Source of the DNA: Acholoe squamosa
Taxonomy: Eukaryota; Annelida; Polychaeta; Phyllodocida; Polynoidae
Assembly: GCA_949317995.1 (NCBI GenBank)
Contig: OX439040.1
Location: forward strand, 59,058,089 to 59,122,088
DNA: 64,000 nucleotides
Direction: 5' to 3'
Made by a program: the position numbers and the translations under genes. A model generated the notes under the pieces. It did no database searches, was not told where the DNA came from, and worked only from the letters and a program-made list of their open reading frames with translations. Of the stretch, positions 1 to 56,075 are shown piece after piece. Numbering within the stretch: the first letter of the stretch is position 1; every line of letters begins with the position of its first letter.

Positions 1-387
1 TATTTTGATTACTGCAGCTTCATGATTGATGGTGCAAATATGGACCAAGTCGCAAAACTCCAGAGGCTACAAAACAGGGGGCTTAGGATCATTACTAAAA
101 CATTAAGTATCAAAACAAGTACAGAGGTCCTTCACACCCGATGTGCAGTAGACAGGTTAGAAACCAGACGCAAAAACCAGCTGGCGATCTTCATGTACAA
201 GCAAGCCACCAAGCTGGGCCTGACGGTCAATGAAACCCAAAGGACCAGGAGTGACTTAAAAATTAAATTCCCACAGAAAAGGCCTAATCTTGAAAAATAT
301 AAGAGGAGTCCATATTACAGGGGTGTCCACCTATGGGACAGGATTGATGCCAGAGCTCAAAAAGCTAAGTCAATTTTAAGATTTTAA
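1..387 (+). pseudogene. LINE reverse transcriptase, C-terminal fragment
   Basis: An open frame runs from base 1, beyond the window edge, to the stop at 385-387. It begins with YFDYCSF and continues through KLQRLQNRGLRI to a basic tail ending SILRF. The arrangement (YFDY, then LQxLQNRGLRI, then a conserved Trp before the C-terminus) is that of the thumb and C-terminal region of CR1/L2/jockey-group non-LTR retrotransposon RTs, also seen in the LINE copies at 9-15 kb. The catalytic palm lies outside the window, so whether the copy is intact cannot be judged. The C-terminus differs clearly from the 9-15 kb copies, so this is a different LINE family. Clade is uncertain. Confidence 0.75.
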
Positions 388-1125
388 GTCACTATACAGC
401 AAGTACAATCTTGCTCCAGCCTTAATCGGCTAGTTGGGAAGTGCCAGACTCAAGGAAGATTGGGCTCCTGTCTTTGTTTTACTGAGTAATCATTGACACA
501 GAGGCTCCCATAATCCCTAAATTGTACAGGTACATGTAAAAGGAAACTGCATTGAATTACTGCAAACACAGTATACCCTATATCTGATTTGACCAAACTT
601 TGACTGAAGAGTTTTAGTTCCCCATAGTTGTAGAAAATGCCCACACTGCCAGAAAAACAACTACCATTATCATCAACTTCTACTTCACCTCAACTCACCA
701 AAATATCTACTATCTCACTGTCTGGTTGGCATCAGCAGTGTTTACTTTTACCTTTATCCTATCAGCTCTCTACTCCAACTATTCTATGTCATTTGAAGTC
801 TATCCGCATGATAAAAATTTATATTGTATGTAAGCTCCAGGATTGCTTTGTATGCCAAGAGTTAGATGTGGAAATAAAGGTTCGGCAGCGATGTAAAATC
901 ATGAAAATGATGTGGTGAAGCTGGAACAAAAAAAAAATGTAACGAGGAGGCGCAAATTTGAGGAGTTTAGGATCTTTTTTAAGGAAATTTTCACAGCATA
1001 GCTGTGATGAATTATTTTATTATGGTTAAGGGACATAGTTACCATAGAACTATGTATGCATGCTGTCTGTAAGGGGTTATTGTATGGCATGACTAATAAA
1101 AACTCATGTTGCCTGTAAGGGGTTA
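388..1125 (+). other. LINE 3' UTR, then unassigned sequence
   Basis: Follows the RT stop codon. A polyadenylation-type AATAAA lies at 873-878, and the LINE probably ends near 890. From there to 1125 there is no ORF, but fragments (TGCCTGTAAGGGGTTATGG) resemble the start of the satellite that follows. Confidence 0.4.
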
Positions 1126-8989: not shown

Positions 8990-10400
8990 ACTGCAAGTCA
9001 AGTTTCAAGTTTCAAAGATATTTTATTCCAAGAAATATTTACAGGTTCGCCATTCCAGAGATCTCCCTGCATCATACACCTGGGAGATTGCTATGGGGGA
9101 ACAATCTCTCATTTACCATGGTAATACTAATACTACTAATACTTGTGGAAATACAGATCCTCATATATCGGTACAGTGTGTGTAATATTCAGTGATATAT
9201 GGATAAACAAAATAAACCACTATGAAAATTGTTCTACTTCTACCTTCATAATGGGTATAAAGTTTATCTGTGTCCCATTCCCTATAGAAGTAGCTTACTA
9301 GCCTGTTTTTGATTTCCGTTTTGCAGCTTTCCTTCCCCACTATCCATCTTAGGCTGGGTTCTAGAGCATTCCATTGTGCATGAGCTTGATATACCGGGTC
9401 TCTAATGAGGTATTCTGATTTGGGGCAGGCTTGTAATATTTGGGGTGCTTGTGAGCTGCGGGTACCAACAGAGTGTAGTACAAGAGCTTGGCCACTAAAT
9501 ACCAGTCTGTGACACATTGTCAACTGCAGGGACACTCTTCTTGGCTTATCTATTGGCAGCATTTTTGCTCTAACATACAGCTCTTTGACATGGATGTCCC
9601 TTGGGTTATTTATCCTATAACATATTCTTAAACCAGTGTTACACAATACATGTAGCTTCCTGAGGGCTGATGCTGGCAGGCCCGTTGTAAAAACAAGACC
9701 ATAGTCTAGGTAAGGCATGACCATACTTCTCATAATACCACAGTAAGTTCATCAATCATACTACGAGTTTGCAGCAACATCCACACTTTATGCCTAACTG
9801 ACTTGACCATGTTATTTACTTGCCCCACAAAGTCGAGGCTTCCATCCATCATAATACCTAAATACTTGTACATTGTGGTAGCTTCAAACTCTGTGCCTTT
9901 GATATTCAGATTCAGCTCCTCTCTATCCCTAGAGATCAGCATGTGTTTGGACTTGGCTATATTTATTGTGAGGCTGTTTATACCACACCACTTTACAATA
10001 CTATCAACATCCTGCTGTAGTGAGGCTAGTAGTTCTTCTAATGTGCTATCACAGCCTATCAACAGAGTGTCATCTGCATATAGCTTAAGTTCGGATGTAG
10101 TGTTCACTGTAGCCATTAGAGTTTTACATAAATGAGAAACAGCAGAGGACAGACACTGGAGCCCTGATATATTCTGATGTGACTTTATTACACAGAGTTC
10201 TCTGCACACGGTTCTCCAGGTAGCTCCCCAACCATTTCTGGGCCTGCTCTGCTATTCTGAGAGGTCCTAATTTAGAGATCAGCAGGCTATGGTCCAGAGA
10301 ATCAAAAGCTTTTGCTAGATCAAAATAGACTATTCCCACTTTCTTATTATTTACTCTATGCAGATGAGCAGTGTGTAGTACCTGGAATAACTGCAAATTT
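8990..10400 (-). pseudogene. 5'-truncated, frameshifted LINE (RT 3' half)
   Basis: Read on the minus strand from about 10400: VGIVYFDLAKAFDSLDHS (RT palm, first catalytic Asp), then after a frameshift LKLYADDTLLIGCDS (the YADD catalytic motif), then after another shift YLDYGLVFTTGLPAS through WNALEPSLRWIVGKES near the C-terminus. At least two frameshifts break the reading. The 3' end has AATAAAATATC followed by a short (GAAACTT)n tail at about 8990-9030, typical of CR1/L2-type ends. Residue pattern matches the larger LINE at 11-15 kb, so the two are related copies in the same orientation. It is inside cyclophilin intron 1 and cannot be active. Confidence 0.85.
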
Positions 10401-11072: not shown

Positions 11073-13303
11073 TTACGATGGGGCAGATGGGAGCACTTCC
11101 CTAGTGATGTCAGTTCCATCAAATAATAAGTATGGGGCATCTCTTCTCCATTTACATAGAAAAGCCAACCCTAACCTCCTTTTGAGTTGTCTACTGAACT
11201 CTGTTTTATCCAGTACCCACCTAAGTGAGGGATCTAGTGCATTCCATCTGGAAGCTGCCTGGTATGTGGGGCCCTTTATATACATTTCCAGTTTACGCCT
11301 GGGAAGTTTAATGGTGGGAGCTCCCGTGGCTCTAGTCCCAGTGCTAGGAAGTGTCTCCATCTTGCCCGAATACACCAGCCTATGACAGAGGGTCAATTGG
11401 AAATATATTCTCCTCAGATCCAACGGCAATATATTAGCTTTTTTATAGAGCTCTTTGACATGGCATTGCTTGGGATCCTTTTTTTTAAAACATACCCGCA
11501 ACCCAATGTTACAAAGTACTTGTAGCCTTTCATAACATACTACCGGCAGAGCCGTCAAGAATATCGACCCATAGTCAAAATATGGCAGTATCATGGTTTT
11601 GAAGACAGTTTGAGCAGCCTCATTGTCCAAGGACGCACATATTTGCTTATATAACCACAATTTATGGCTGACCTTGCTACACATGTCATTAAAATGTTCT
11701 TTAAAGGTGAGGTCCTTATCTATAACCACACCAAGGTATTTGTATGTGTCAGTCCTTTCTAGATTCGAACCACATATTTTAAGGGCCAGATCCGACACAT
11801 CAGTCTCCTTGGATATAAGGGTGTACTTTGTCTTACTAGGATTTATAGTTAGTCCATTACAGTTACACCAGTTAGCTATTGTGTCTAGATCATCTTGCAA
11901 CATAAGACCCATGACTTCAGTATCGTTATGAGATATGTGCATCAAAGTATCATCTGCACACAGTATTTAACTTCGGCATTGAATTTACATATAGAAGAAA
12001 CAACAAAGGACCCAAAATTGATCCTTGAGGCACCCCGTGAGTAAGGCTTTCCTTTTTAGAGTATTTGTCATTGCAAATAGTATGCTGTGTCCTATCAGAC
12101 AAATAATTACTAAACCACTGGATAGTAGGCAGTGATATATTGAATTTTCTTAGTTTGCTCATAAGTATAGAATGGTCCAAAGAATCAAAGGCCTTGGAAA
12201 AATCCAAATAAACAATTCCCACACTCTTTTCATTAGAGAGTGCTTTATGGGCAGCCTCAAGTAATTGATATACCGCGTCTTGTGTCCCGTTATTTCTTCT
12301 AAAACCATTTTGCTCCCTAGCCAATAAACCATTACCCTCAAGAAAAACATATAGTTGGTTGTATACTAGGCGCTCAAGTATTTTTCCTGGCACCGCTAGC
12401 AGTGAGATCGGCCTCAGCTGCCCAGGGGCAGATGGATTCCCCACTTTGGGTACAGGAACCACAGTTGCTCCCTTCCACCCTAGTAGTATCCTGGCCTCAT
12501 CTATAGATCTATTCAAAAGCGTTGCAAAGGGCTGGAGTGCCAATGACAGGAAATCACGCAGATATTTGCTAGATATGTGATCCATACCTGAAGATTTCAT
12601 AACATCAATATTTTTGATTTCTTTTAGAACCTCAGCTTCAGTGAAGGGTCTCACACTAAACACAGTATTGTTATGACCCATGTCTGGAGAGTCGTCCAAG
12701 GAAAAACCCGCGGGACCCGGTGGGGGGATTTCACCAGCTAACATAGGTCCTACTTTAGCAAAGTAGGTGTTGATTTTGTCAGGTACTTCATTTGATGGGG
12801 TAGGTTGAAAATTTTCATCTAGTAAGTTCACCGGGGCCCTGTTAGCTCTCCTTGGAAGTAGCTCTCCAATGACCTTCCAAAACTTCTTTGGGTCCTGCCT
12901 ATACTGTGCAAGCCTAATTTTAATATACATAGCCTGCGCATGATTTACTGCATCATTGGTTCTGGTTCTGATACCTCTAGCCCACACAAGGCTCTCCCGC
13001 GTCCAATGTTTTTTAACATAGGCAAGCGCCTTATCTCTTTGTCTCATCATTCTGAAAAGTTCCTCTGTAAGCCAGGGTGGTTTCGACCTTGGGAACGAGA
13101 AATCCTTGATGGGGAAGAGGTCATCAGCTACATCAACCATAATTTTATACAAAGCACTCCATAGTTCATCTGGATCAGATATTTCATCCAGCGCCCTCGT
13201 TAGTTTAGAGTGTACAGCATCTTGTATTTTATCTGGGTTATAATTCCTGTATGATCTACCCCTGAACTCTGCCCTGGCGTGTCTGTCTCTCTTATTTTTC
13301 ATA

Positions 13304-14460
13304 CCGTAATCTCCCGCGTATAAGGCGCGTCTTATACGCGAATCAGATCGTGACTGGGTCTTATACGCGGGAGGGTAATTGCCTTGAGTTGGGGGTGCGC
13401 CTTATACGCGGGGTACCTCCACTTTCCAAACCAGAAAGATGTACACAGGTTCATGTATTTTCTTTAACCAAAGAAAAGGTGTAGTCTATACCATGGTGCT
13501 CTAAATACCCTTGAACTGCTGAATGAAACATGCCATTCTGCTCACCATAAAAGTGTTTGGAAATATGTGTACACCCCACTCACTGAGAGCTTTGTTAATT
13601 ACACCATTGACCTTTTAATCAAGAGAATCCATGCAGCATTATAATCAATAATCCTGCCATAGTGTGTGCTGCACCTGGTGTTGTATGAGCTGTATGTCAT
13701 TCTCTATTCTCTACATTACAAACTACTGGTATCCCAGCATGCCATGTCTCTAGAAGACAGGCCTATTTCCCTCTTATAACAGTGTGGGCCTAGATAATCA
13801 ATGGGAGGGTATGATATGAACAAATAACAAATTTGGTTTGAACCTGTCTTATCTATAACCTGTTAACAAATAATGCAAATCAGAGGATTATTTCTTTCAA
13901 AAAATGAACAGTATTGTACCTTTCAAAATGATGCCAAATAACATCAGTTGTGGGCCATATGAAGACAATTGGCATCAATAGTAGTTAATGAGTTAAATGA
14001 TCCCTAGAATAACACCAGGTGGCAGCACACACTATGACAGGATTATTGATTATAATGCTGCATGAATTCTCTTGATTAAAAGGTCAATAGTGTAATTAAC
14101 AATGCTCTCAGTGAGTGGGGTGTACACACATTTCCAAACACTTTTATGGTGAGCAGAATGGCATGTTTCATTCAGCAGTTTAAGGGTATTTAGAGCACCA
14201 TGGTATAGACTACACCTTTTCTTTGGTTAAAGAAAATAATGACCAGTTGGGGTATTGATAGTTGCAGGCAATATTTGAAAGGCCCCTTTGGGTTGGGTCC
14301 TTTATGTGGACCATGCTCCTTGAGTTAGGGGTGCGCCTTATACGCGGTTTTTCAAATATTAGACTGAGGAGCAGCAGATGGCCTTCTATGCGGATCTGCG
14401 TTCTCTGAGTTGGGGGTGCGCCTTCTACGCGGGCTGCGCCTTCTACGCGAGAGATTACGG
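13304..14460. mobile_element. TA-flanked element inserted in LINE ORF2
   Basis: Left CCGTAATCTCCCGCGTATAA at 13304 and right GCGAGAGATTACGG ending at 14460, with TA at 13302-13303 and 14461-14462. The target is codon-resolved: excision of the 1157 bp plus one TA restores the LINE frame. Another inverted-repeat unit is nested inside it. Confidence 0.92.
13457..14237. mobile_element. Long inverted-repeat element nested in the MITE
   Basis: About 220 bp starting ATTTTCTTTAACCAAAG near 13457 returns in reverse complement ending CTTTGGTTAAAGAAAAT near 14237, with matching landmarks such as TAGTCTATACCATGGTGCTC. The central 330 bp has no ORF. No clear target duplication was found, so the boundaries are approximate. 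Confidence 0.75.
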
Positions 14461-15151
14461 TAATAGCATATTGAGGAAGATGGTCACTTATCCCAGAGTT
14501 AAATACACCTTTTTCAGTTATGTGTGGGGAATTAGTGTAAATTTGATCTATTACATTTGTTGGGTGATATAAAGGCCGGGATAGGTGTGATATCAATGGG
14601 TTTAGATGAAATTTTTTAATTGTAGGGTCTAGAGGGCATGCATATTGTCCTCTAGGCGAGACATTTAGGTTAAAATCTCCCATTACATAAATGAATGGCT
14701 CCCTGTGCTGTGTCATAATATATGTCAAGGCAGTGTCCAGGTGCTGTATAAACTTTTCTACATTCCCTTCAGGTCTGTAGACTTGAATAAAGAATTCCGG
14801 CCTACAACCAGTTCTTCCTAATCTAACAGCCATCATTTCACAGTCATCATTAATAATATTCAGTTCAGGGTTTGCAAGCCTGACATGTGCATGTTTATGG
14901 GCTACAAGTATAACTAAGCCCCCTCCAGCCGTGGCAGTGGTCCTGTCAAGTCTGTGTTGAGTATAACCCTGAAACTGATACAGCCTATCATCCATATGAG
15001 GTTTCAGCCAAGACTCAGAAATTCCAAAAATGTCAGGTTGGCGCAAGTATGTGAAATAGGGTAGTGTGACCTTTTTACGTACCATAGACCGCACATTCCA
15101 GGACATAACCATTAGTCCTTTGGGTTTTACAAAGGTTGTTTCACTAGCCAT

Positions 15152-16752
15152 TATTAAAGAAAAAAGACTTGGTGGAAAATCTCGAATTGGGTGACAAACT
15201 TAATTACATCACAGACAATAAAACCTGTAAAGGTAGGTACAAAGACATGGACATGGACACAGACATAAACAATCAAAGGATCTTGATCCCTAATCTCCTC
15301 TGTGGATCTCATTTCACAGAGGGGCGCTGGGGGGGGGGGGAACCACTGATACTAGGTAACATTAATGTCCATGTTTGCGTTCCAAATCACCATTCCAAAA
15401 AATTTCATCATTTAACTCGTCAGCTAATACAATATTGTTTTGAAGGGTATTTGCTAACTAAACTGAATTATGTACCGCTTTTGAGGAATTCGTATACAGG
15501 AGCCACACTTGAAGAATTCAACATACCTAAGCTTAACATTTGTCAAGATCTGTCACATTAATTCGTTAAATCCAATCCAATTTTACTCTTAACGCTTAAA
15601 AAAGACCACTGCCAACGGTAGCATGGTCAACACTGTAAGCCTCTCTATATAACCTCCTCTGAGTCACCCGACATGATATGGGTAATAAAAACTGGCGTAA
15701 TTTAAATACAGAGTTCCAAGTACTGTAAATCCCCGGTCATAAGCTGGATTTTTTTTTCTATTTTGGGCCCAAACAGGCTTCTAAATTTTTCCCAAAGTCC
15801 CCCCCGGCTTATGACCTGGTTTTTTTTACTATAGAATAAAGAGAAAATGGGAAAAATTTGACACCAAAATCGGCTTATAGGATTTCCCTGAACTCACCCC
15901 CCGGCTTATGACCGGGGCCGGCTTATGACCGGGGATTTACGGTACTTAACGGCTAATACATACTACCATATTCTGTAACACACATCCCAACTTAGGTCGA
16001 TGTTCCACAAATCAAATGCATGCTTATAACACGTAGTATTGAACACTAACCATAGACCAACGGGCCATCAAATATTTCTGATACTCTGGACATGGTCCAA
16101 CATGCTATGAACAGAGTCGACATTTTCCTCCAAGATTAATTCTTAATTCCAACTTTGTTACACAGTATTCCTCAAGTATAGACATAGATTATGTATCGTA
16201 GATCAAAACAATCAAACAACAGCCAGTATACCATAGGGCCCACTGTAACGCACCAATATGTCTAAGTAGAGCCACTGTTACATGACATCTTCTTTACACC
16301 TTAGTTATAATTTGTTATCTCTGACACAGCCAACATATTACGCTGCCACACACTACCATGCCCAATTCCCATCCTATGCAGATCAAGGGTTAAGCGGGCC
16401 TACTGCCAAGTTAACCCAGACATACACAGTCCCAGTCATAGACAAATAATCATAAAAAAATAAAAATAAATCTGACATAGCTTCTGCTTCAAGAGTACTC
16501 AGTGTTATGTAAGTAAATATCAGAGTAGCAGTTCTCTTGCGTATAAACAAATAAGGGTATTCTCAATTCAGCTTTAAGCCAAGCACCATTTTCATAGACA
16601 TCAACTTATTCAGACATATGTCTTGAGATCAGCCACAGTTCAATACATCACTTCCTTATATTTTCGTAGAGTTCAGTGTACCAACTTTAGCTTCATAGTA
16701 TAGTAGTATACATGTGGGGGGAGGGGGGGTCTACCCCAGCTCCTGCTCACAT
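15152..16752 (-). other. Noncoding stretch between LINE-like ORFs
   Basis: Upstream of ORF2 on the minus strand. Apart from the MITE at 15723-15942 there is no ORF, repeat or motif that can be named. It may be inter-ORF or 5' leader sequence of the LINE. Confidence 0.4.
15723..15942. mobile_element. TA-flanked MITE, CCCCGGTCATAAG variant
   Basis: Left CTGTAAATCCCCGGTCATAA and right CTTATGACCGGGGATTTACG with a TA on each side. It shares the CCGTAAAT tip with the CCGTAA family, but its subterminal word is CCGGTCATAAGCC instead of CGCGTATAAGGCG. Confidence 0.85.
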
Positions 16753-17651
16753 CTAGGATAGACCAGTTGCATTCATCCAAGACTTCATATATTGATCTAG
16801 CACATCAGCCCAATATGTTACTAGTTTGGCAGTGGGTACATTGTTGTAATTCATATGTTTGTACTCATGCCTCCAGACGTTTCCTATATTGTAGTGTACA
16901 GGGTACTGTGGGGGGGGGGGGGGGTGGCAAGTAGGCGGGCTTCATTAAACTGATAAACACAGTCATTGACTGTAAGGACTGCTTGGTTTAGTATTCCTTG
17001 TAGGTCTGGGCTCACAGTTGGGATTCCCTGGTACACCGGCCATGGTGATGTCCTCGCCCCTACTATAGGGATCCAAACTACAGCTCCTGGGGGGGCTGCG
17101 CTGTCTAGCAGGTCATCAAGGCAATATAGCTCATATTTGATACTTTCACAGATCTCATCAATGTTGAGGACACATGGGCGTATGTTGGTGCAAAATGCAT
17201 TGTCCAGTACAGCAGCATCATACTGGCACAGGTCATAAAATCCAGTATTTATAAGAACCTTGTCAGCCTTCCCATCTAGATAATACTTTATGGCTTCTTC
17301 AACCACTTGCCTAGCTGTCTTGCGGGGACGCAGTATAACAGTATATGTCACCGGGTTGTCCTCTATGTACATCTGCGCAGCCTCCAGAAATTCCATATGT
17401 TCATCAGCAAAGATAGCCACTCTGACCATCCTAGCAGCTGAGCCTTGAGTCTGTATATTCTCTGCGTATCCAACTGTTTCTCCCGAAACCTGTAGGCCGA
17501 GCCCCCTGCCGACTCTACTTCCTACGGGAGCGGCAGAGCGCAGATGCCTTTGTTGTAGTCTAAAATTCGGTACCAATGGTACCGAATGATTTTTAACACA
17601 CTTCCCCTTTATGCATGGCTTCCAAATTTCATCCATACAACTATGGCACAC
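16753..17651 (-). pseudogene. Cys-cluster plus SGNH-like ORF (LINE ORF1-like)
   Basis: The frame from 17651 codes for a Cys/His cluster (CHSCMDEIWKPC, KGKC), a linker, then an alpha/beta domain: MVRVAIFADEHMEFLEAAQ, then KADKVLINTGFYDLCQYD, VLNIDEICESIKYEL and GAVVWIPIVGARTS. Block order resembles the SGNH/GDSL hydrolase fold found in ORF1 of several CR1/L2 LINEs. The usual GDS is replaced by ADEH and GxND by GFYD, so catalysis is doubtful. The apparent stop at 16884 follows a run of C residues on the minus strand (16911-16924). After a one-base shift there the frame stays open to TAG at 16755-16753 and includes WRHEYKHMNYNNVP. This suggests a homopolymer frameshift or sequencing slip. Whether it belongs to the LINE at 11-15 kb or is separate is unknown. 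The start is uncertain. Confidence 0.55.
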
Positions 17652-18744: not shown

Positions 18745-20050
18745 TCACAACACAGTTTCAGCGACAACTTCTTTAGGGATCGTTTCAGACTGCACTTCTT
18801 CTGCAATATGAAGGCTTAACCTCTCTTCTTGAATTGCTATAGCACCCTGATCAGTTTGTTGTGTTTGGTGATCTTCTTTTTTCTTCTCAGCCGGTTCAGC
18901 AATGTGGCTGACGCCCAGTTGACTTGTATGTTGTTTAGTAGGCTTAACAGCTGACTGGCTGGCAATTCGCTGTTTCTCAGGTTGGCTTGCAGATTTATCA
19001 GGCTGGCAGATAGTCCGTGCTGGTTGAGTAGGTGCAGGCGTTAGGACCTGTTGTTGGAGAGGTGCAGGTTCAGGCTTAAGCCTATCTCTGACTCTAGTGA
19101 GTATTTTACCCATCTTGTTGGCCCCTTTATAATGTCCAATGTGAAGATCTCTGGAGAAAATGGTTTCTCCCGCGCCATTATAGGGTCCTTGGTGGCTTCA
19201 ATAAAATGTTGATCGCCGTATCTAAGTAAGAAGTCACACACTCCTTTGTTCTGCGAGAATTTTGCAGACTGCACGCTCCAGGGTATCTTCCTGGTACTCC
19301 TCTCGCCACTCTCTAGACGCTTTAAAGGAGTCACCGATGGATTTCATTTCCCTGGGTCCTGTCTGGTTCCTGATTAGGGTGGCTAACATGCTTTTGTCAT
19401 GTTGTTTACATTTTACATACATGTAATACTGCTCTACACAGTTCCATGTGGCTCCATCTAAAGTAAAAGATGTCCCATGCCAATTTGACAACGGGCTGAA
19501 TTTAGACATGTATGCCACGCCTTTTGGGGTTTGAACTGTGAAGGCATGTTCTACTGCAAGATGAGGGGGGATGAGGTGGCAGTTTTCTTTGTTGAACCTT
19601 ACTCCATCTATGATAATCTCATCTCCATAGACCGCACAGGTGTGCCCTTTTGCCGCTGCCAGTTGCTGTATAGCTCTGAGGCCCATGATAATTCTCTGTC
19701 TTCATCTGTGTAGTCTGGGTTAATCCAGATTTTACTGTATTTGTCGTTTTCACAGCGCCTTAGTCGTGATCTAGAGTTGTAGATCTTATCACGCAACAGT
19801 TGTGTGACAAAGACACAGACAAGCGGTTTATTCCTATACCTAGCTTGAGGCCTGGGAGGAGGGCCCCCGCGTTCCACGTGCTCTATATCAGCAATATCTA
19901 TGTTATAGCCTATATGCCTGAGAATATTCATTATCTCATGCGACATGTTTTTTCCATATGTCTCCTCTAGCTTGTCAAAGACTAATGTTCTCTTCTTTCG
20001 TTCCCTTTCCTGGTATTCCACTACACGCAGTTCAACCAGCGCCCTCATGT
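18745..20050 (-). pseudogene. LINE ORF1 3' part: RRM, CTD and NADAR domain
   Basis: Minus strand from 20050. ALVELRVVEYQERERKK leads into an ORF1-type RRM: EIMNILRHIGYNIDIADIEH, KPLVCVFVTQLLRDKIY, SKIWINPDYTDEDREL, as in L1-like ORF1 proteins that bind element RNA. After a one-base shift near 19680 comes a short CTD (YGDEIIIDGVRFN), then a NADAR domain: AYMSKFSPLSNWHGTSFTLD, WNCVEQYYMYVKCKQH, REMKSIGDSF. Another shift at an A-run (about 19263) continues with FSQNKGVCDFLLRYGDQH and FIEATKDPIMA, and a third, near 19120, leads to KGANKMGKILTRVRD. A Gln/Pro-rich tail ends at 18745. NADAR (YbiA/DUF1768) proteins are N-glycosidases of riboflavin-pathway or ADP-ribose metabolites; the Phe-SN and VEQYY blocks are the family signature. 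At least three frameshifts make this copy a pseudogene. Confidence 0.8.
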
Positions 20051-20259
20051 CAGGTAGGATTATGACGGGATTCCGGTCGAAGCTCGCCGAGAGTCCTCTC
20101 CCTACCGTCGTGTAGTCGCCGTATAGTGTGAGGCGGGGGGGGGGGTGAGGGGTTGGGGGCAGGGGGAGGGGGGGAGGTGGATGGGTTGAGGGGAGGGGGC
20201 AGTAGTTGCTTGGGTTAGTTGGGGTTGGGTTTATTGGTTACCTGTCCCTGGTTACCTGT

Positions 20260-21210
20260 ACACCGGTGACCGGAGATGACTTTCTTGAGTCATCTCCGAT
20301 CCAACTGGAGGAAACCTGGAGATGACTTTCCATTTCCTGGATTTGTCATCTCCAGTCTGTTCTATATGGTTACCTCATACCTGTACCGTACATCGGAGAT
20401 GACTTTCTTGAGTCATCTCCGATCCACCTGAAAGATACCTGGGACCTGGAGATGACTTTCCGCCTCCTGGATTGTCATCTCCAGTCTGTTCTATGGTCAC
20501 CTGTACACCGGAGATGACTTTCTTGAGTCATCTCCGATCCACCTGGAGGAAACCTGTGACCTGGAGATGACTTTCCATTTCCTGGATTGTCATCTCCAGT
20601 CTGTTCTATATGGTTACCTGTACGGTACACCGGAGATGACTTTCTTGAGTCATCTCCGATCCACCTGGAGGAAACCTGTGACCTGGAGATGACTTTCCAT
20701 TTCCTGGATTGTCATCTCCAGTCTGTTCTATATGGTTACCTGTACGGTACACCGGAGATGACTTTCTTGAGTCATCTCCGATCCACCTGGAGGAAACCTG
20801 TGACCTGGAGATGACTTTCCATTTCCTAGATTGTCATCTCCAGTCTGTTCTATATGGTTACCTGTACGGTACACCGGAGATGACTTTCTTGAGTCATCTC
20901 CGATCCACCTGGAGGATACCTACAACCTGGAGATGACTTTCCGCCTCCTGGATTGTCATCTCCAGTCTGTTCTATGGTTACCTGTACACTGGAGATGGCT
21001 TTCTTGAGTCATCTCCAATCCACCCGGAGGAAACCTGGGACCTGGATATGACTTTCCATTTCCTGGATTGTCATCTCCAGTCAGTTCTATGGTCACCTGT
21101 ACACCGGAGATGACTTTCTCCAGTCATCTCCGCTCTGCACCTATGGTACCTGTACCCTGCAGATCACTTCCAACATTCCAGGTATATGTCATCTCCAGTC
21201 TGATTTAAGG
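20260..21210. repeat. 122-bp hairpin tandem array, left arm
   Basis: GGAGATGACT recurs at 20632, 20754 and 20876, giving a 122-bp period. Each unit carries two hairpins: GGAGATGACT-TTCTTG-AGTCATCTCC, and a larger one from CTGGAGATGACT to GTCATCTCCAG. About eight units. The 75-aa ORFs here are repeat artefacts. Confidence 0.93.
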
Positions 21211-21726
21211 CCATTTAGTTCTAATAAATTGGATTACGGATGTTTTCAATCAACTCTGTGGTCGGCCATGGGCAAAAAAATAAAAATAAAAGTTGCCCCA
21301 AGCCCCCATCTAAGACCCAATATATCCTACCGGCATGAGCAAAAAAAAAAAAAAAAAAGTCATGGAAAAGCCATTTTTATGTCATCTAAAGTGTAGATAC
21401 CGGTATTAATAATTTGTTCACATGGAAAGGCAGAAATCGAAGGTTCATTGCTTACAATATACTATTTTTCCCAAAGAATAATATTTTTTGGGTCATATTC
21501 TCCAAAAATCCTGTCGCCAATAGGAAAAAAAAAATAAAATAAAATTTTCACTTTTCTATTTTGCCAAAAATCTTGTCGCCAGATCCGTAATCAAAGTTAT
21601 AAGAATAAAATGGCCTAACCTAGAGATGACTTTCTAGAGTCATCTCCGGTCTGCCTGGAGGATGCCTGCACCTGGAGATGACCTACCATGTCCTGGGTAG
21701 ACATCTCCGATCTGTTCTTACTCTTA

Positions 21727-21924
21727 GGGAGTGGTCATTTTTTAACAACAGGGGAGTCGGTGAAATTCCGCGCGTGTGCACAGAAATTTTTCAGTGCCCA
21801 CTCAGAGGCGGTTGAAATTTTTCTGTCCCCCCCTTTTATTCTTTAGTGGCGCGCATTCTTTTTCGCTCAAAAGGGGGGGGGGGAGTCTTTTTTGTCCCAC
21901 CCTAAGAGGGGTCTGACCACTCCC
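21727..21924. mobile_element. GGGAGTGGTC MITE inside the foldback, left copy
   Basis: Inverted ends GGGAGTGGTCATTTTTTAAC and GGTCTGACCACTCCC. It is mirrored at 22292-22476, so it was present before the arm was duplicated or copied by gene conversion. Confidence 0.75.
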
Positions 21925-22291
21925 TAAAGCCGAAAGATTAGTGAGGAGGAAGGTATGAAGGGGTTCGGGATCATGAATTATTTCAAATTTTGGATCCACC
22001 AAATTTTAAACTTGTGCCCCTGGATTGTCATCTCCAGTCTGATCTACGGTCACTTGTACACCGCATGAGCAATAGGGTGCACCAGCAGGTTAACTCGGAG
22101 GAGTAACCCTTCAGGGTCCAAGTATAAGAACAGGGCTGAGCATCCCTGGAGCTTTTGCAGGCACAGTCGTAGCCGGCTACCGGAGAAGCAGTGATGGGGC
22201 ACAAGTTTAAAATTTGGTGGATCCAAAATTTGAAATAATTCATGATCCCGAACCCCTTCATACCTTCCTCCTCACTAATCTTTCGGCTTTA

Positions 22292-22476
22292 GGGAGTGGT
22301 CAGACCCCTCTTAGGGTGTCGTTTTTTTGAACAAAAAAGCCCGCGCGCCACTAAAGAATAAAAGGGGGGGACAGAAAAATTTCAAACCCCTCCGAGGGGG
22401 CACGGAAAAATTTTCACCACACACGCGCAGAATTTCACCAACCCCCCCCCCCTGTTGTTAAAAAATGACCACTCCC
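22292..22476. mobile_element. GGGAGTGGTC MITE inside the foldback, right copy
   Basis: Reverse-complement counterpart of 21727-21924 in the opposite arm, with the same flanks (CTTTCGGCTTTA and TAAGAACAGA). Confidence 0.75.
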
Positions 22477-22606
22477 TAAGAACAGATTGGAGATGTCTAC
22501 CCAGGACATGGTAGGTCATCTCCAGGTGCAGGCATCCTCCAGGCAGACCGGAGATGACTCTATAAAGTTGTCTCCGGTGTATTAAGTTACAGGTAGGCCT
22601 AACCAT

Positions 22607-23160
22607 TTTTTTGTTTGTTTGTTTGTTTAGTTTTACGTCCGGGGGCCATCGAGGAACTCAGACATTCAAGGTTTCTCGGACATTAAGTCCTTTCTTTTCT
22701 TTTTGGACAGGTATTTATATGCTGCTTGCCCGACACAGCAGTGACCGAATCTATGAATGACCGAATCTATGAGATGAATGACCGAATCTATGAGGAGGGT
22801 CGAGGGGGAAAACCGCTACCGGGGCTTCATTCCCCTACTCTTTTCGAAGGATAGCAAGTGTTCTTTTATTTGCCTGGTCCCATAGGCAGGGCCAGACAAA
22901 CCACGGCCTTTGATCACTCAGACGTGGTTCACTGAGGGGGAATCCCATGGCAAAAGACAAGCATGTAAGCCCAGGCCCGCGCATATGGACACCAGCTGCC
23001 CACATGCTCACCCCAAGACACAAGAAACACCAAGTTTGTCGCCTTTTACGAATCTGGTATGCCCACTGTTGGTATGGAAGGAGATTTCTCCTTGTGGACT
23101 CCCAATGGAGTTATTCTGCTCCTTCATGCCCTCACATGAAGGTCCCCACTCCACAGAGGG
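22607..23160 (-). mobile_element. Retroposon (SINE-like) inserted in the right arm
   Basis: Flanked by the 12-bp direct repeat AGGCCTAACCAT at 22595-22606 and 23161-23172. The left end is a (TTTG)n run, so the element is on the minus strand with a (CAAA)n tail. It contains a small GACCGAATCTATGA repeat near 22743-22795. No counterpart exists in the left arm, so it inserted later. Confidence 0.8.
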
Positions 23161-23189
23161 AGGCCTAACCATAGAACAGGCTGTAGATC

Positions 23190-24150
23190 CCTGGAGATGA
23201 CCATCCAGGACATGGTAGGTCTTCTCTAGGGTACAGGTATCCTGCAGTAGGATCAGAAAGTCATCTCCGGTGTACATGTAACCATGGGACAGACTGGAGA
23301 TGGCAATCTAGGAAATGGAAAGTCATCTCCAGGTCCCAGGTATCCTCCAGGTGGAACGGAGATGACTCCAGAAAGTCATCTCCAGTGTACCGGGTACAGA
23401 TAACCATAGAACAGACTGGAGATGACAATCCAGGAAATAGAAAGTCATCTCCAGGTCCCTGGTATCCTCCAGGTGGATCAGAGATGACTCCAGAAAGTCA
23501 TCTCTGGTGTACGGGTAACCATAGAACAGACTGGAGATGACAATCCAGGAGGCGGAAAGCCATCTCCAGGCTGTAGGTATCCTCCAGGTGGACTGGAGAT
23601 GACTCTAGGAAGTCATCTCCAGTGTTCAGGTGAGTATAAAATAGACTGGAGATAACAATCCAGGAGGCGAAAAGTCATCTCCAGGCTGTAGATATCCTCC
23701 AGGTGGATCGGAGATGACTTTCTTCTCCGGTGTACAGGTAACCATAGAACAGACTGGAGATGACAATCCAGGAAATGGAAAGTCATCTCCAGGTCCCAGG
23801 TATCCTCCAGGTGGATCGGAGATGACTCAAGAAAGTCATCTCCGGTGTACAGGTGACCATAGAACAGACTGAAGATGACAATCCAGGAGGCGGAAAGTCA
23901 TCTCCAGGTCCCAGGTGTAGCCTACATCCATAGAACAGACTGGAGTTGACAACCCAGGAGGTGTAAAGTCATCTCCAGGTCCCAGGTATCTTTCAGGTGG
24001 ATCGGAGATGACTCAAGAAAGTCATCTCCGATGTACGGTACAGGTAACCATAGAACAGACTGGAGATGACAATCCAGGAAATAGAAAGTCATCTCCAGGT
24101 TTCCTCCAGTTGGATCGGAGATTACTCAAGAAAGTCATCTCCGGTCACCG
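23190..24150. repeat. 122-bp hairpin tandem array, right arm
   Basis: Reverse-complement array of 20260-21210: GGAGATGACTC, AGTCATCTCC and ACAGACTGGAGATGACAATC recur through the region with substitutions. The mutual complementarity would let the whole element fold into one long hairpin. Confidence 0.92.
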
Positions 24151-24304
24151 GTGCACAGGTAACCAGGGACAGGTAACCAATAAACCCAACCCCAACTAAC
24201 CCAAGCAACTACTGCCCCCTCCCCTCAACCCATCCTCCCCTCAACCCATCCACCTCCCCCTGCCCCCAACCCCTCACCCCTCCCCCCGCCTCACACTATA
24301 CGGC

Positions 24305-24590: not shown

Positions 24591-24652
24591 GAACAACGAC
24601 TGGGAGAGGACTTCCGGCGAGGATGAACTGAAATCGCGTTGAAAACATAGCT

Positions 24653-25162
24653 CCTCATGTTCTTGTCTGCATCCCGTTGTGACCTCTTCAGGTTAGTGAC
24701 AGCGCCTCGTAGTGCGGCAATTTCACCTTCATTTTTACCTATCCTATTCTCTTTTTCTTTCAGTTGCTCTTTCAGTTTGTCAATATCCTCACCATAGAAA
24801 TCAGCCGTGGTCTGAAGTCCGGCCACTTCCCCCTGCACTGTACCTATAGAATTTTCTGCTACTCTGACCCGTTCTGTCAGCAGTGTCGTCTCACCTTCCA
24901 CCGTTGTGACACGCTCAAGCAGCTTGTTCCAACCTTTGGAAGATTCTTTCAAGTCACGTATATCTCTAAGGCCCGTCTCAAGATCTCTACGCATATCCTT
25001 TATTCCAGATCCTAATTCATCTCTTAGTGCAGCTATGTTTTCACTGAGAGCAGTCAGTGGGTCTTTCTCTCTGTCACCGTTGATCTTATCCAACATCTCT
25101 GTTTTTGAGCGTGTCAGTCTGTCAGCCGCCATTTTAGCCGTAACTCCCTTGTTATCGCCCAT
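24653..25162 (-). pseudogene. LINE ORF1 N-terminal coiled coil
   Basis: Starts at the ATG at 25162 (MGDNKGVTAKMAADRLTR). It continues as a long heptad-rich stretch (GIKDMRRDLETGLRDIRD, LLERVTTVEGETTLLTER, IDKLKEQLKEKENRIGKN) and reaches DADKNMR, where the foldback element begins. Coiled coils of this type make LINE ORF1 proteins trimerise. The frame joins the RRM segment at 20050 once the insertion is removed. The apparent C-terminus beyond MR is element sequence. Confidence 0.85.
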
Positions 25163-25489
25163 CTGGGGCAGCTTTTTTCTGATGCAAGTAGTAATCAATA
25201 TATTTACCAAACACAGGAAATAAGTATTCTTCTTTGATCCTGGGTAGGTAATCTCAATTTGTGACGAGGTAAAGTTCTTACACACACAAGGATGACGTTG
25301 ATTTTCCCGGATTCCCCCCTCCGCCGTTATCGCGCTAGCCTTGCTGCGTCATGTTATGCTATTTAGATATGAGTCGCAGACCCCCTAGATTAGCATTTTT
25401 ATTCTATTTTTCATACAAAATGTTGTATGAAATGTTAAATTTTAGTTACACATATACTAAAATGAGCACATAGGGGGTAGGGGAGACCT
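25163..25489. other. Probable LINE 5' leader, then unassigned
   Basis: Directly upstream of ORF1 on the minus strand. The 5' end of the element cannot be fixed. No ORF. Confidence 0.35.
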
Positions 25490-26189: not shown

Positions 26190-26686
26190 CAGTAAAATTC
26201 AGTTATAACAAACTACTAGGGAACAGCAGAAAAATTCGTTATAAACGTATTTCATTGTATCCAAACAAAGTAATTGTGGGCAGAGATGTCCTAAAACAGG
26301 GCCCAACACCTCTTTGAACCCACCTACTGCCGCACAGGTGACATGGGGGTGGGCAGAGATGTCCTAAAACAGGGCCCAACACCTCTTTGAACCCACCTAC
26401 TGCCGCACAGGTGACATGGGGGTGGGCAGAGATGTCCTAAAACAGGGCCCAACACCTCTTTGAACCCCTTATACTGCTGCACAGGTGATATGGGGGTAAG
26501 TAGAGATGCATTGAAACCACTCTATAGCCAAAAGAAATTCGTTGTAAACGAATACAATCATGTAAAGTTCACTATAAAGGGATTAATTTACTATAGAAAT
26601 GTATGGAGTTATATTGGGACATTGCAATTTGTTTGCTATAAACGAAAATTCGTTGTAACAGGATTCGTTGTAGCGGAATTTCACTG
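26190..26686. mobile_element. mariner-type MITE with minisatellite
   Basis: CAGTAAAATTCAGTTATAAC at the left and GTTGTAGCGGAATTTCACTG at the right, each next to TA. Further inward TTCGTTATAAACG and TTCGTTGTAAACGAA also pair. These are ends of the Tc1/mariner CAGTGAAA type. It contains the 73-bp minisatellite. Confidence 0.85.
26276..26500. repeat. 73-bp minisatellite, 3 copies
   Basis: GTGGGCAGAGATGTCCTAAA at 26276, 26349 and 26422, then a diverged partial copy. The first two units are almost identical, so the amplification is recent. Confidence 0.93.
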
Positions 26687-43983: not shown

Positions 43984-44000
43984 TGGTGACAGCCGGTGTT
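43984..44000 (+). promoter_or_regulatory. Gypsy-2 primer binding site
   Basis: TGGTGACAGCCGGTG begins one base after the LTR. TGG fits a tRNA 3' CCA. The tRNA was not identified. Gypsy-1 has nearly the same site. Confidence 0.7.
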
Positions 44001-44035
44001 TTCAAAGGAAAGAACTCTACGCTGGGGGTGTTGAT

Positions 44036-46678
44036 ATGAGTGACAGGGAAATTCAAGAACTTATGGCAGGAAGACGGGGTAACCTAGTCGAAGTTATCCC
44101 TGGGGAGGACATATTTCTGAGAAGGTCCAGGGAGGAAGGTCCGCCATTTTCCGTGCCGCTGCCGCAGGAGGACACCGTACCGCTGCCGCACGTACCGCTG
44201 CCGCAAGGGACCCTCGTGCCGCAGGACCAAGGCGTACCGCTGCCGCAGGGCCTGGACAAAGGCGTACCGCTGCCGCAGGTACTGGACCAGGGCATACCGC
44301 TGCCGCAGGTACTGGACCAGGGCGTACCGCTGCCGCAGGTACTGGACCAGGGCGTACCGCTGCCACAGGTACCGGACAAGGGTGTGCCGCTGCTGCAGGG
44401 ACGGGATCAGGAGGTACCGCCGCCGCAAGGGAGAGGCCAAGAAGTACCGCTGCCGCACGTACCGCAGTACCAGGCCATGCCTCAGCACCGCACTGTACCT
44501 AGTGCCGCTGCCGCGGCTGCTAACGTCCACGTACCACAGATGGTGCCGCAGCCTCGTCTGATGGAAGATGGTCTCCTGACGAACCAAAGAGCCTGGGCTT
44601 GGCAGTACGGTGTGGAAATGGAGGAAAGGCGGAAGGCTAGGGAGGAAGAGAGGGTAGCACAAGAGGCTAGATGGGAGGAGCTAGCTCAGAGCTTGGCGCT
44701 GACTCACCTAGAAAGAGGGGAGGAGACGACTCGTGACATCCCAGTTTCTCTGGCCGACCATACAGGGGATAGGGGATCACCCTGGGAAGGCACTCCACGG
44801 CAGGGGGGTGACCTGTCGCTACCATGGGGATCATCATTCTCGGCACCGGTCCGCAAGGAAACCGAGTCCGTCGGGAGGGATAATCGGGAGGCTCGGACTC
44901 CCCTGACCAGGCACGAGCTCCGGTTACCACTCTACTCGTCAGATGCTCCTAGCGTTCCCCCTCAGGGGAGTTGGCCATGGACCCCCATGTTTCAGGGAGC
45001 TGCCCCTTCGGTGCCTTCCAGCGTGTGCTCTTCGAGGGCGGCTAGCCCCGCACCTACAATTTGCCCTGACGACCGTGGGGCGATGTCCTTCCCGAGGAAG
45101 GAGGGAGGAGAGATGCCCTCGGCGGCACTACCTAAAACAAGTAATACGGCTCGCCTACCACCTGGGTTTCTCCAGTTGGGGGAGAGCCGCGTGGACCCAG
45201 GCGGCCTCGGGACGGACCCGATTCCAGTGAGACAAGAGGCAGAAAGGGATGGCGTTCTGGCCCCTAGTTCAATGCCCCCGGCACGCCTAGGAGATCGCGA
45301 AACAACAAGCTACCCAAGGACGGGAGGATGGGAGATGCCTTTGGCGGAGCTCCCGAAACCGGTAGACGCCTCGCGTCTTCCACCAGGCTTTCTCCGGGTA
45401 GGTGAGGGCCGCATGTACCCGGGTCACCGGGAGAGAGACACTATCCTGGAGAGGCACGGGGTCCCAGTAGGGACGGCGGGGTATGCAAGAGCACCCATGG
45501 GACCAGCGGTCGCCCCTCCCATGGGGCTGGCACCATCATATAGGTCCTACGTCTCCCCTCCCCTCTGGGGCTGGAGAGCCCCTTCGGAGGGCCCCAGGTT
45601 CCCCGAGGCGGAAAACCCCCAGGGATACCCTACGCAGCGGATGGTGCCTGCACATTCCCCGGCAGCAGGGGACGATTGGAGTAACCTCCCTCGGCCCGTC
45701 GCACCCGCCATGGAGTTGCCCCGAGGACCAGCGGGAGAACCCTCTATCAAACAGTGGGGTGGCCCTGAGAAGGCACTCAAGGGCATCAGTGGCAGCGAGG
45801 GCAACTCGACCACTAAGGAATGGGGCAAGGGAGACAAGTTGTCGAAACCCATATTCATGCCCGGAAAATTTGATGGGTCAGGTCATCTGACGGAGTACCT
45901 GGCGCACTTCGACCTTTGCCGGAGGGCGAACGGATGGGATCACGAAACAGCTGGAGTTTTCTTAGGTCTAAGCCTCACCGGCATTGCCCGAAGACTGCTG
46001 GCGGGAGTCGAATCGGGAACCGCCCGGGGGTACTTACAACTGCGGGAAGCGCTGGTGGCCCGCTTTCAACCACCTAACCAGGCCGCCATGTATAAGGCCA
46101 TCCTACGAGCCAAGGAAAGGGTAAAAGGGGAGTGCTTGCAGGCTTACGCAGAAGAAATCGAGCGGTATACTCGAATGGCTTATCCGGGTGCTGACGTTAA
46201 CACCATTAACGTTATAGCAAAGGATAAATTCATAGACAGCCTGAAGGATCTGGAGTTGCAGAACTGGATTCACCAAGGGACTCCCGAGACTCTAGTCGAC
46301 GCAGTACAGATCGCCCTGCGAGGTGAGGCCGTCCTAAGACCTAACCGAAATTCCAGCAGTGTGAGAGCCGCCGACAAGACCATGGCGGAGGAGCTGGCGC
46401 AACTGCGCGCAGAGTCGGCGAAAGATCGGGAAGCTAACGCCGCCTTCCGCGATTCTTTTCGCGATAAAAACAGCCGGAGTAGCGGGAACGGTAGAGGTAA
46501 TTCTGGCCGCTCGTCTTCGGCGAGACCCCGCAATAGCGACCTGCGCTGTTATCACTGCGCGGAGTTAGGACACATGCGGGTAAACTGCCCCGCCTGGAAA
46601 GCAATGGTAGAGGTAGCGGAGACTCGCTCCCCGTCCGGGGCCCCCTCCAAGGCAGCTGACAAACCGGCGGAAAACTAG
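44036..46678 (+). CDS. Gypsy-2 gag polyprotein
   Basis: Structural protein that packages element RNA. ATG at 44036 (MSDREIQELMAGRRGN) is chosen because upstream codons belong to the leader; the product is 880 aa. N-terminus: a run of GVPLPQVLDQ decapeptides (30-bp DNA repeats, 44225-44375) rich in Pro and Gln. Middle: low complexity with PSRPP-type segments and two related PPGFL repeats (SNTARLPPGFLQLGE, DASRLPPGFLRVGE). From about 45850: the retrotransposon gag domain (FMPGKFDGSGHLTEYLAHF, REALVARFQPPNQAAMY). C-terminus: zinc knuckle CYHCAELGHMRVNC (46546-46590). It ends TAG after GAAAAC. The pol frame is open across this stop in the -1 register, so a frameshift probably makes Gag-Pol. Confidence 0.93.
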   Translation: MSDREIQELMAGRRGNLVEVIPGEDIFLRRSREEGPPFSVPLPQEDTVPLPHVPLPQGTLVPQDQGVPLPQGLDKGVPLPQVLDQGIPLPQVLDQGVPLPQVLDQGVPLPQVPDKGVPLLQGRDQEVPPPQGRGQEVPLPHVPQYQAMPQHRTVPSAAAAAANVHVPQMVPQPRLMEDGLLTNQRAWAWQYGVEMEERRKAREEERVAQEARWEELAQSLALTHLERGEETTRDIPVSLADHTGDRGSPWEGTPRQGGDLSLPWGSSFSAPVRKETESVGRDNREARTPLTRHELRLPLYSSDAPSVPPQGSWPWTPMFQGAAPSVPSSVCSSRAASPAPTICPDDRGAMSFPRKEGGEMPSAALPKTSNTARLPPGFLQLGESRVDPGGLGTDPIPVRQEAERDGVLAPSSMPPARLGDRETTSYPRTGGWEMPLAELPKPVDASRLPPGFLRVGEGRMYPGHRERDTILERHGVPVGTAGYARAPMGPAVAPPMGLAPSYRSYVSPPLWGWRAPSEGPRFPEAENPQGYPTQRMVPAHSPAAGDDWSNLPRPVAPAMELPRGPAGEPSIKQWGGPEKALKGISGSEGNSTTKEWGKGDKLSKPIFMPGKFDGSGHLTEYLAHFDLCRRANGWDHETAGVFLGLSLTGIARRLLAGVESGTARGYLQLREALVARFQPPNQAAMYKAILRAKERVKGECLQAYAEEIERYTRMAYPGADVNTINVIAKDKFIDSLKDLELQNWIHQGTPETLVDAVQIALRGEAVLRPNRNSSSVRAADKTMAEELAQLRAESAKDREANAAFRDSFRDKNSRSSGNGRGNSGRSSSARPRNSDLRCYHCAELGHMRVNCPAWKAMVEVAETRSPSGAPSKAADKPAEN

Positions 46679-55083: not shown

Positions 55084-56075
55084 GACGATTGATACTAGAG
55101 TAGAAGACGTATAACCAATCATGTCAGCATATGTCGCGGCAGTGGCACTGTAATTCGTGCCCGGGGTACGGGAGGTCCAGCGAGCGGGGTGCTGGAGAGT
55201 AGAACCGTAAAAGAGGGAGGAGCGGGGCCAGGAGGCGCGGTAGGAAACCTAGGGGAGCAGCGTGGCTAAAATGGTGTTCTGTGTGTCGTTACAGCCTGAG
55301 GGGGAGGCCCCCGAGTAGGGTGGAGCTACCGGCCTGGTCCGAGCCTGGGGAGGCGTCGCGGAGCCGGGGTTGGGCACCCGGTTCCGGGTCCGTGGAGGGG
55401 TGAGCCGGAGGCCCCCTCCACGCAGCGGGTGGTGTCATCATCCTTCATCATCATCATCAGCATCTTCATAGTCGGGACGACGGACGAGGACAACGTCGAC
55501 ATCACTCAGGAATTAGTTCTTTTTAGCGCTGTCGCGTAGGCTCCTTAAGAGCAGGGTCATCACGGGTTCTGAACCCTCATTATTTTAGAGTTTGGGCCCG
55601 TTGGCCGGCTAAGCCTCTTATAGGCAGGTTCATCGTTGGGGTTCTAAACCCCCTTTTGTTAGTTAGTTTCTGGGCCCCGTTGGCCGGCTAAGCCCCTTCT
55701 GGGCAGTGATAGACATTTGGTTAGGGCTCCTAGCCCTTGTTTTCCCCACATGGCGGGCTTTAGCTAGGAGGGGGCGCATGGGGGACGCCCTCGGTTTTAG
55801 GCTCCACATGAGCAGCAGCATGTCAATCTTAGTTATGGGCTCTTTTGGCCGACTAAGCCCCTTAAGGGCAGGGCATAAGTTAAGGAGGGGTTCCTAACCC
55901 TATAGCCCCACACGGCTGGCTTAGCTCGGAGGGGGCGGAAGGGGGCCGCTCCCGGTTAGTTTCACTCCTTACTTCTAAGACTAGTTAAAGTAGGCTGTTG
56001 ACCTAAGGGTCCATTCTTACCATTTTACCTTTTTATAATCGTTCCCCCCCTGTGCTTTAAATGGGCAGGGGAGAG
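55084..56075 (+). other. Gypsy-2 3' untranslated region and purine tract
   Basis: Noncoding. TTGGCCGGCTAAGCC or variants recur near 55590, 55678 and 55845, with inverted CTGGCTTAGC near 55917, hinting at RNA structure. GGGCAGGGGAGAG at 56063-56075 abuts the 3' LTR and is the likely polypurine tract. Confidence 0.65.

Follow-up and report, generated by a model that had tools for sequence, protein, structure and literature searches.

A NADAR domain is fused into the ORF1 protein of many LINE retrotransposons in the genome of the polynoid annelid Acholoe squamosa. The fusion is found in intact, long open reading frames (ORFs), and the domain keeps its catalytic residues and is under purifying selection. 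The window, which is the whole stretch of 64,000 nucleotides that was analysed (contig OX439040.1, positions 59,058,089 to 59,122,088), contains one decayed copy of such a LINE. NADAR in ORF1 is not peculiar to this copy; the same ORF1 design is widespread in the genome.

The decayed element of the window

The LINE lies on the minus strand of the window, from about 25.3 kb down to 11.1 kb. The parts of its ORF1 are ordered as coiled coil, RRM-like part, C-terminal domain (CTD), NADAR and tail. The features of the element are:

24623..25252, minus strand: ORF1 coiled-coil remnant (tblastn with the ORF1 of locus L033, 35% over 207 residues, E=1e-25; weak coiled-coil Pfam matches)
20135..24279, no strand: foldback-like insert that splits ORF1 between the coiled coil and the RRM-like part; it has long inverted arms and tandem repeats of ~122 bp
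19680..20039, minus strand: ORF1 RRM-like part (54.6% identity to L025 ORF1; family-built RRM-CTD profile, 114 bits)
19504..19701, minus strand: ORF1 CTD (RRM-CTD profile, 55 bits; open piece 19701-19234)
19075..19503, minus strand: NADAR domain, three pieces in two frames (PF08719, 38.8 + 14.1 + 15.4 bits)
18745..19074, minus strand: ORF1 Pro/Gln-rich tail, ending at a stop codon (open frame 19197-18745)
16774..17435, minus strand: middle ORF, SGNH/GDSL-like, without the GDS serine (two pieces, 47.8% and 51.1% identity to the L025 middle ORF)
14423..15157, minus strand: ORF2 endonuclease (PF03372, E=7.5e-7; 65% to L019)
11103..13305, minus strand: ORF2 reverse transcriptase and C-terminal part, two frames (PF00078, E=7.4e-23; 54.7% and 64.8% to L019)

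The element is classed as a LINE by the endonuclease and reverse transcriptase (EN-RT) of an ORF2 that lies downstream on the same strand. The sequence-only reading had confined itself to 18745..20050, which does contain ORF1 sequence, but the element continues through the middle ORF, the endonuclease and the reverse transcriptase to about 11103. The window copy is dead: its ORF1 is broken by the ~4-kb foldback-like insert and by frameshifts. The arms of the insert, 20135-20343 and 24071-24279, are 89% complementary, and tandem arrays occupy 20269-21132 and 23254-23916 inside it. The frame shifts between the RRM-like part and the CTD and again within NADAR, while the CTD runs without a stop into the first NADAR piece. 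The earlier impression of a single ORF therefore holds for the intact relatives (L025 is stop-free over 597 residues) but not for the window copy itself. This copy has no close kin, its identity to the 150 genome matches scored being at most 63% with itself excluded. Elsewhere in the window, 9236-10390 (minus strand) and 1-402 (plus strand) hold reverse transcriptase fragments from further LINEs that are related to the groups described below. The window also contains a tandem array at 26276-26508 (73-bp unit, 3.2 copies, 94% matches) and, at 44000-56000, about 12 kb with a G+C content of 0.59-0.67, compared with 0.46-0.49 in the adjoining blocks.

The peptides quoted in the sequence-only reading are encoded on the minus strand where it had placed them, and its NADAR assignment is borne out by Pfam. 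PF08719 matches the piece at ~19503-19288 with E=1.4e-9 and 38.8 bits, above the cut-off of 35.1. Two further pieces, 19280-19188 (14.1 bits) and 19137-19075 (15.4 bits), are each below the cut-off alone; the three are colinear with profile positions 9-91, 94-124 and 143-163. All 8 members of an alignment of the family (A2) pass the curated cut-off. Profiles built from the relatives place the RRM-CTD (114 + 55 bits) just upstream of NADAR (98 + 24 + 21 bits) in the window copy, which was also scored as L037. The claim that ORF1 contains an RRM is less firm. The domain order and the coiled coil fit a type II ORF1, and the family profile has weak matches to L1 ORF1p (E=0.036 and E=1.6), but the Pfam profile searches listed no match of the ORF1 family to RRM or Transposase_22. 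Order and the L1 ORF1p matches thus weakly suggest an RRM-like identity for this part.

Kinds and numbers of NADAR-bearing LINEs

The search of the 1.48-Gb genome with PF08719 yielded 3224 first-look candidates. All 150 that were scored exceeded the curated cut-off, and many of them lie in frames open over 450-830 residues. Of 14 control genomes, 3 were positive in this search. Twenty loci of 10 kb and eight of 2.2 kb were read, together with short ones accompanying the match lists; they were picked from these lists by score and diversity, not at random. Eighteen of the 20 loci of 10 kb are LINEs, and in all 18 the EN-RT lies downstream on the NADAR strand. In 22 of the 28 loci L011-L036, L005 and L007, the RRM-CTD precedes NADAR by at most 150 bases, a count that is silent on ORF1s without NADAR because the loci were chosen by NADAR. 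In a further 12 loci, which include the window itself and five repeats of elements already read, the RRM-CTD precedes NADAR in every case. Intact copies, which the sequence-only reading had proposed to look for, are thus numerous and carry NADAR within the ORF1 frame, as expected if a LINE ORF1 has captured the domain. Neither of the outcomes that it had named as refuting this, the lack of a NADAR match or a NADAR frame absent from intact members or belonging to a host gene, appeared.

The elements can be divided into seven groups by their ORF2 and layout:

Group A: the window copy, L019, L025, L032 and L033/L034; middle SGNH-like ORF present
Group B: L013, L014 and L030; two middle SGNH-like ORFs in L013 and L014
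Group C: L011, L012 and L018
Group D: L027 and L028
Group E: L023/L024 and L029
Group F: L017 and L020; L1-like ORF2
Group G: L015, L016, L021, L022, L026 and L036; RRM-CTD absent, NADAR fused to a following part that has a GNSN motif, and a different reverse transcriptase motif

NADAR accompanies three types of ORF2: the CR1/jockey-like type of the window element, an L1-like type and a third type, whose ORF1 is without the RRM part. Wherever ORF2 was read in groups A-E, its reverse transcriptase has a VPQGS- or IPQGS-type motif, which we take to be CR1/jockey-like. The group F ORF2 scores 253.5 bits with human L1 ORF2p and 71 bits with R2 and, by these scores, is closer to L1 than to R2; it may belong to either L1 or Tx1. 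L031 and L035, of which ORF1 was read, have the RRM-CTD and NADAR. The six loci without the RRM-CTD are all members of group G. In L022 (5460-7688, minus strand) and L036, NADAR is followed by the GNSN-motif part. Read by eye, the motif suggests that this part is SGNH-like; Pfam GDSL gave no match in it. On the opposite strand of L021 there is a second, broken RRM-NADAR pair, which is outside the count of 22 in 28.

Some copies are nearly identical: L023/L024 (99.9% over 7.8 kb), L021/L022 (99.7% over 4.0 kb) and L033/L034 (99.2% over 2.1 kb). Such pairs point to recent activity of these LINEs.

The middle ORFs at L013:4370-6017 (plus strand), L014:3925-5317 (minus strand) and in the window have a GxND-like block; two of them stand in tandem in L013 and in L014. 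The GDS serine of SGNH hydrolases is missing from the middle ORF in groups A-C, and the GxND-like block is kept. PF13472 matches 4 of 8 members weakly (best E 3.7e-5), and a search of the PDB gave no match. The middle ORF seems to resemble the SGNH fold with the active site absent, and is perhaps catalytically dead. A match of the L023 middle ORF to a NarE-like transferase (E=0.0011, 19.7 bits, cut-off 27) was taken as chance; it overlaps the stretch that corresponds, by our matching, to the GxND-like block in other middle ORFs.

Selection, catalytic residues and origin

To examine selection, intact ORF1s of different families were compared in ten pairs, which have members in common and cannot be counted as independent. 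The pN/pS of NADAR is 0.077 in L025/L032, 0.167 in L025/L033, 0.162 in L032/L033, 0.139 in L013/L030, 0.286 in L012/L018, 0.334 in L013/L014, 0.310 in L025/L019, 0.424 in L022/L036, 0.456 in L023/L029 and 0.333 in L027/L028; synonymous sites are near saturation (pS 0.71-0.96), so that these ratios, if anything, overstate dN/dS. NADAR is below the RRM-CTD in seven of the nine pairs that have an RRM-CTD, with bootstrap ranges that mostly overlap, and the tail has values of 0.53-0.78 (six pairs). Pairs within families, which have few changes, give 0.13-0.39 for NADAR in three cases and zero non-synonymous changes in L033/L034. The test for selection on NADAR that had been suggested earlier gives a purifying signal in the ten between-family pairs (0.08-0.46), about as strong as that on the RRM-CTD.

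A profile of nine LINE and two host NADARs (alignment A1) matches the Phytophthora nicotianae NADAR (PDB 8bau, E=1.7e-23) and Escherichia coli YbiA (2b3w, E=5.3e-22), and no other PDB chain up to E 0.1. In the paper on 8bau, which is the ADP-ribose-bound structure, E43, K50 and E125 are placed about the ADP-ribose. On the assumption that the numbering of the 8bau chain equals that of the paper plus two, the Glu is found in 25 of 25 intact LINE copies (near-copies included), the Lys in 22 and the Glu of the last strand in all 25. The Lys is replaced by Arg in L014, L017 and L020. The position matched to K75 is Lys in 24 of the 25, and R79 is Asp in group A by our own reading of the alignments. 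The window copy retains all three residues, Glu, Lys and Glu. According to the paper on 8bau, the K95R mutant of the E. coli C7 NADAR kept its activity in vitro and lost its rescue of cells. The conserved residues lead us to predict that the LINE NADAR is an enzyme.

The genome has two NADAR loci that resemble ordinary host genes, L009:4755-5420 and L010:4444-5184 (both minus strand), with 64% mutual identity. They have neither the RRM-CTD nor a full EN-RT, although L009 has one RT-like piece of 53 bits about 1 kb away. Both are near animal and bacterial NADARs, and the best identity of L009 among the 120 NADARs listed is 66%. In protein searches, one intact ORF1 (residues 160-500) as query gave no match at E<=0.001 among 2371 candidates, and an alignment of eight as query gave two among 7991 scored sequences, P0125 and P0126. 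The protein P0125 comes from another source and shares the coiled coil, the RRM-CTD and the beginning of NADAR; its AlphaFold2 model (pLDDT 55) was too poor for a fold search. P0126 has 748 residues with Pfam PF13155 and NADAR, and may be a fusion of a phage primase with NADAR.

A first, quick tree with 59 NADARs put L020, on a very long branch, among the cellular sequences and the phage-like P0126 among the LINE sequences; a single LINE clade was not rejected (p-AU 0.644), and the tree constrained to it was 11 log units better. A second, careful tree had 42 rows: seven LINE copies were added, and P0126, P0005 and roughly half of the remaining cellular references were taken out. One branch (98/87) splits its 18 LINE NADARs from the 24 cellular ones; L020, L031 and L035 are long branches. 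The cellular references were drawn from the 120 listed matches closest to a profile headed by the host gene L009, a sample without DarT-linked or phage NADARs. The second tree fits a LINE group apart from the sampled cellular NADARs, which is not proof of a single origin; several independent captures are not needed to explain it but may have occurred. Groups A, B and C form one group in both the ORF2 tree (99) and the NADAR tree (94/96), which fits their common descent. The same RRM-CTD precedes NADAR in L1-like and CR1-like elements, which fits a possible exchange of ORF1 between LINE clades. Such exchange has been proposed for other ORF1 types (PMC4120745).

Possible function and known systems

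L1 ORF1p coats the RNA of its own element, and the ORF1p of the present LINEs is expected to do likewise. The reading that we prefer, with even confidence for and against, is that the RNA-binding part of ORF1 is fused to a NADAR that frees the guanines of LINE RNA or cDNA from ADP-ribose. In living copies ORF1p would presumably trimerise on the LINE RNA, and its NADAR would remove ADP-ribose from guanine N2 on this RNA or on the nascent cDNA. A bulky group at guanine N2 would be expected to impede both base pairing and reverse transcription, so that the action of NADAR would leave the reverse transcriptase an unblocked template. The mark could come from the host or from a toxin. Of the hydrolases tested in PMC11833690, NADARs alone removed ADP-ribose from guanosine in RNA. 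NADARs are active on DNA too (PMC11543638, PMC11125620), and a guanine-N2 transferase, CARP-1, is known from clams (PMC11209040). Since the domain is kept by selection, the LINEs may be shielding themselves from a guanine-marking attack, a putative self-protection akin to the counter-defence that the sequence-only reading had proposed. A wider version is tentative and on balance doubtful: guanine ADP-ribosylation would be a weapon of animals against retroelements, to which LINEs of several clades would answer with an eraser, fused to their RNA-coating protein, taken up once and passed on by ORF1 exchange.

The catalytic residues alone do not disclose the substrate, and the LINE NADAR might be an active hydrolase that tunes the RNP by acting on something else, for example metabolites derived from NAD or ADP-ribose, RNA ends that resemble NAD, or proteins of the RNP that are ADP-ribosylated. 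Some NADARs are described as N-glycosidases of riboflavin intermediates, and YbiA proteins differ in specificity (PMC11125620). This is a rather unlikely alternative, as the fusion behind an RNA-binding part in most loci points to nucleic acid, and NADARs were inactive on ADP-ribosylation of phosphate ends of RNA and DNA (PMC11833690). Loss of activity, leaving NADAR with a structural role in ORF1p or as a module that binds RNA or ADP-ribose, could account for the Arg in place of Lys in three copies and for variation at other positions, such as R79. It is weakened by the persistence of both Glu residues throughout and of Lys in all the other copies across long-branched lineages, in contrast to the SGNH-like middle ORF of groups A-C, which has lost its serine; we regard it as distinctly unlikely. 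The broken window copy on its own could be read as a host NADAR gene, a retrocopy or a chance match that happens to be in or beside a LINE, particularly in a genome with two ordinary-looking host loci. That possibility was rejected as very improbable, given the intact single ORFs in many copies and lineages, the EN-RT downstream in all 18 LINE loci, the retained catalytic residues, purifying selection, the separation from host NADARs in the tree, and the same design in P0125.

NADAR in retrotransposons has a precedent. PMC12477816 (2025) mentions, in one sentence, the domain in ORF1 of several Crassostrea gigas Tx1 LINEs; it also reports NADAR in the Pol of a single Gypsy lineage from Ectocarpus and suggests a role in processing RNA intermediates. 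The L1-like group F may be of the same kind as the oyster elements. In A. squamosa, unlike in that account, the NADAR-bearing LINEs also include CR1/jockey-like elements and a third type that lacks the RRM part, and selection, catalytic residues and phylogeny were examined as well. The wider range of LINEs, the selection on the domain and the grouping of the LINE NADARs are the new findings; no further paper on NADAR in LINEs was among the matches listed in a search of titles and abstract beginnings in open-licence PMC. The order of coiled coil, RRM-like part and CTD is that of the type II ORF1, including L1 ORF1p (PMC4120745), with the difference that NADAR and a tail follow the CTD; the ORF1 additions named in the cited text of that paper are PHD, CCHC and esterase, not NADAR. 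The SGNH-like parts recall the esterase ORF1 of CR1/L2 LINEs (PMC4120745, PMC3905857), but here the SGNH-like part is either a middle ORF of its own, doubled in group B and lacking the GDS serine in groups A-C, or, as read from its motif, a part fused behind NADAR in group G. NADAR antitoxins and YbiA (PMC11543638, PMC11125620, PMC11833690) share the domain and the YbiA-subfamily Glu/Lys/Glu, whereas in the LINEs it is fused to a retrotransposon RNA-binding protein, with no adjoining transferase known.

PMC11125620 describes what NADARs do in eukaryotes, including animals, as unclear. That selection has retained the domain in the RNA-binding protein of numerous LINE families points to a nucleic acid substrate, and one small domain makes it testable whether guanine ADP-ribosylation acts against animal retrotransposons. 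If the proposed activity is real, the RNP of these elements would bring along an enzyme of its own for base repair.
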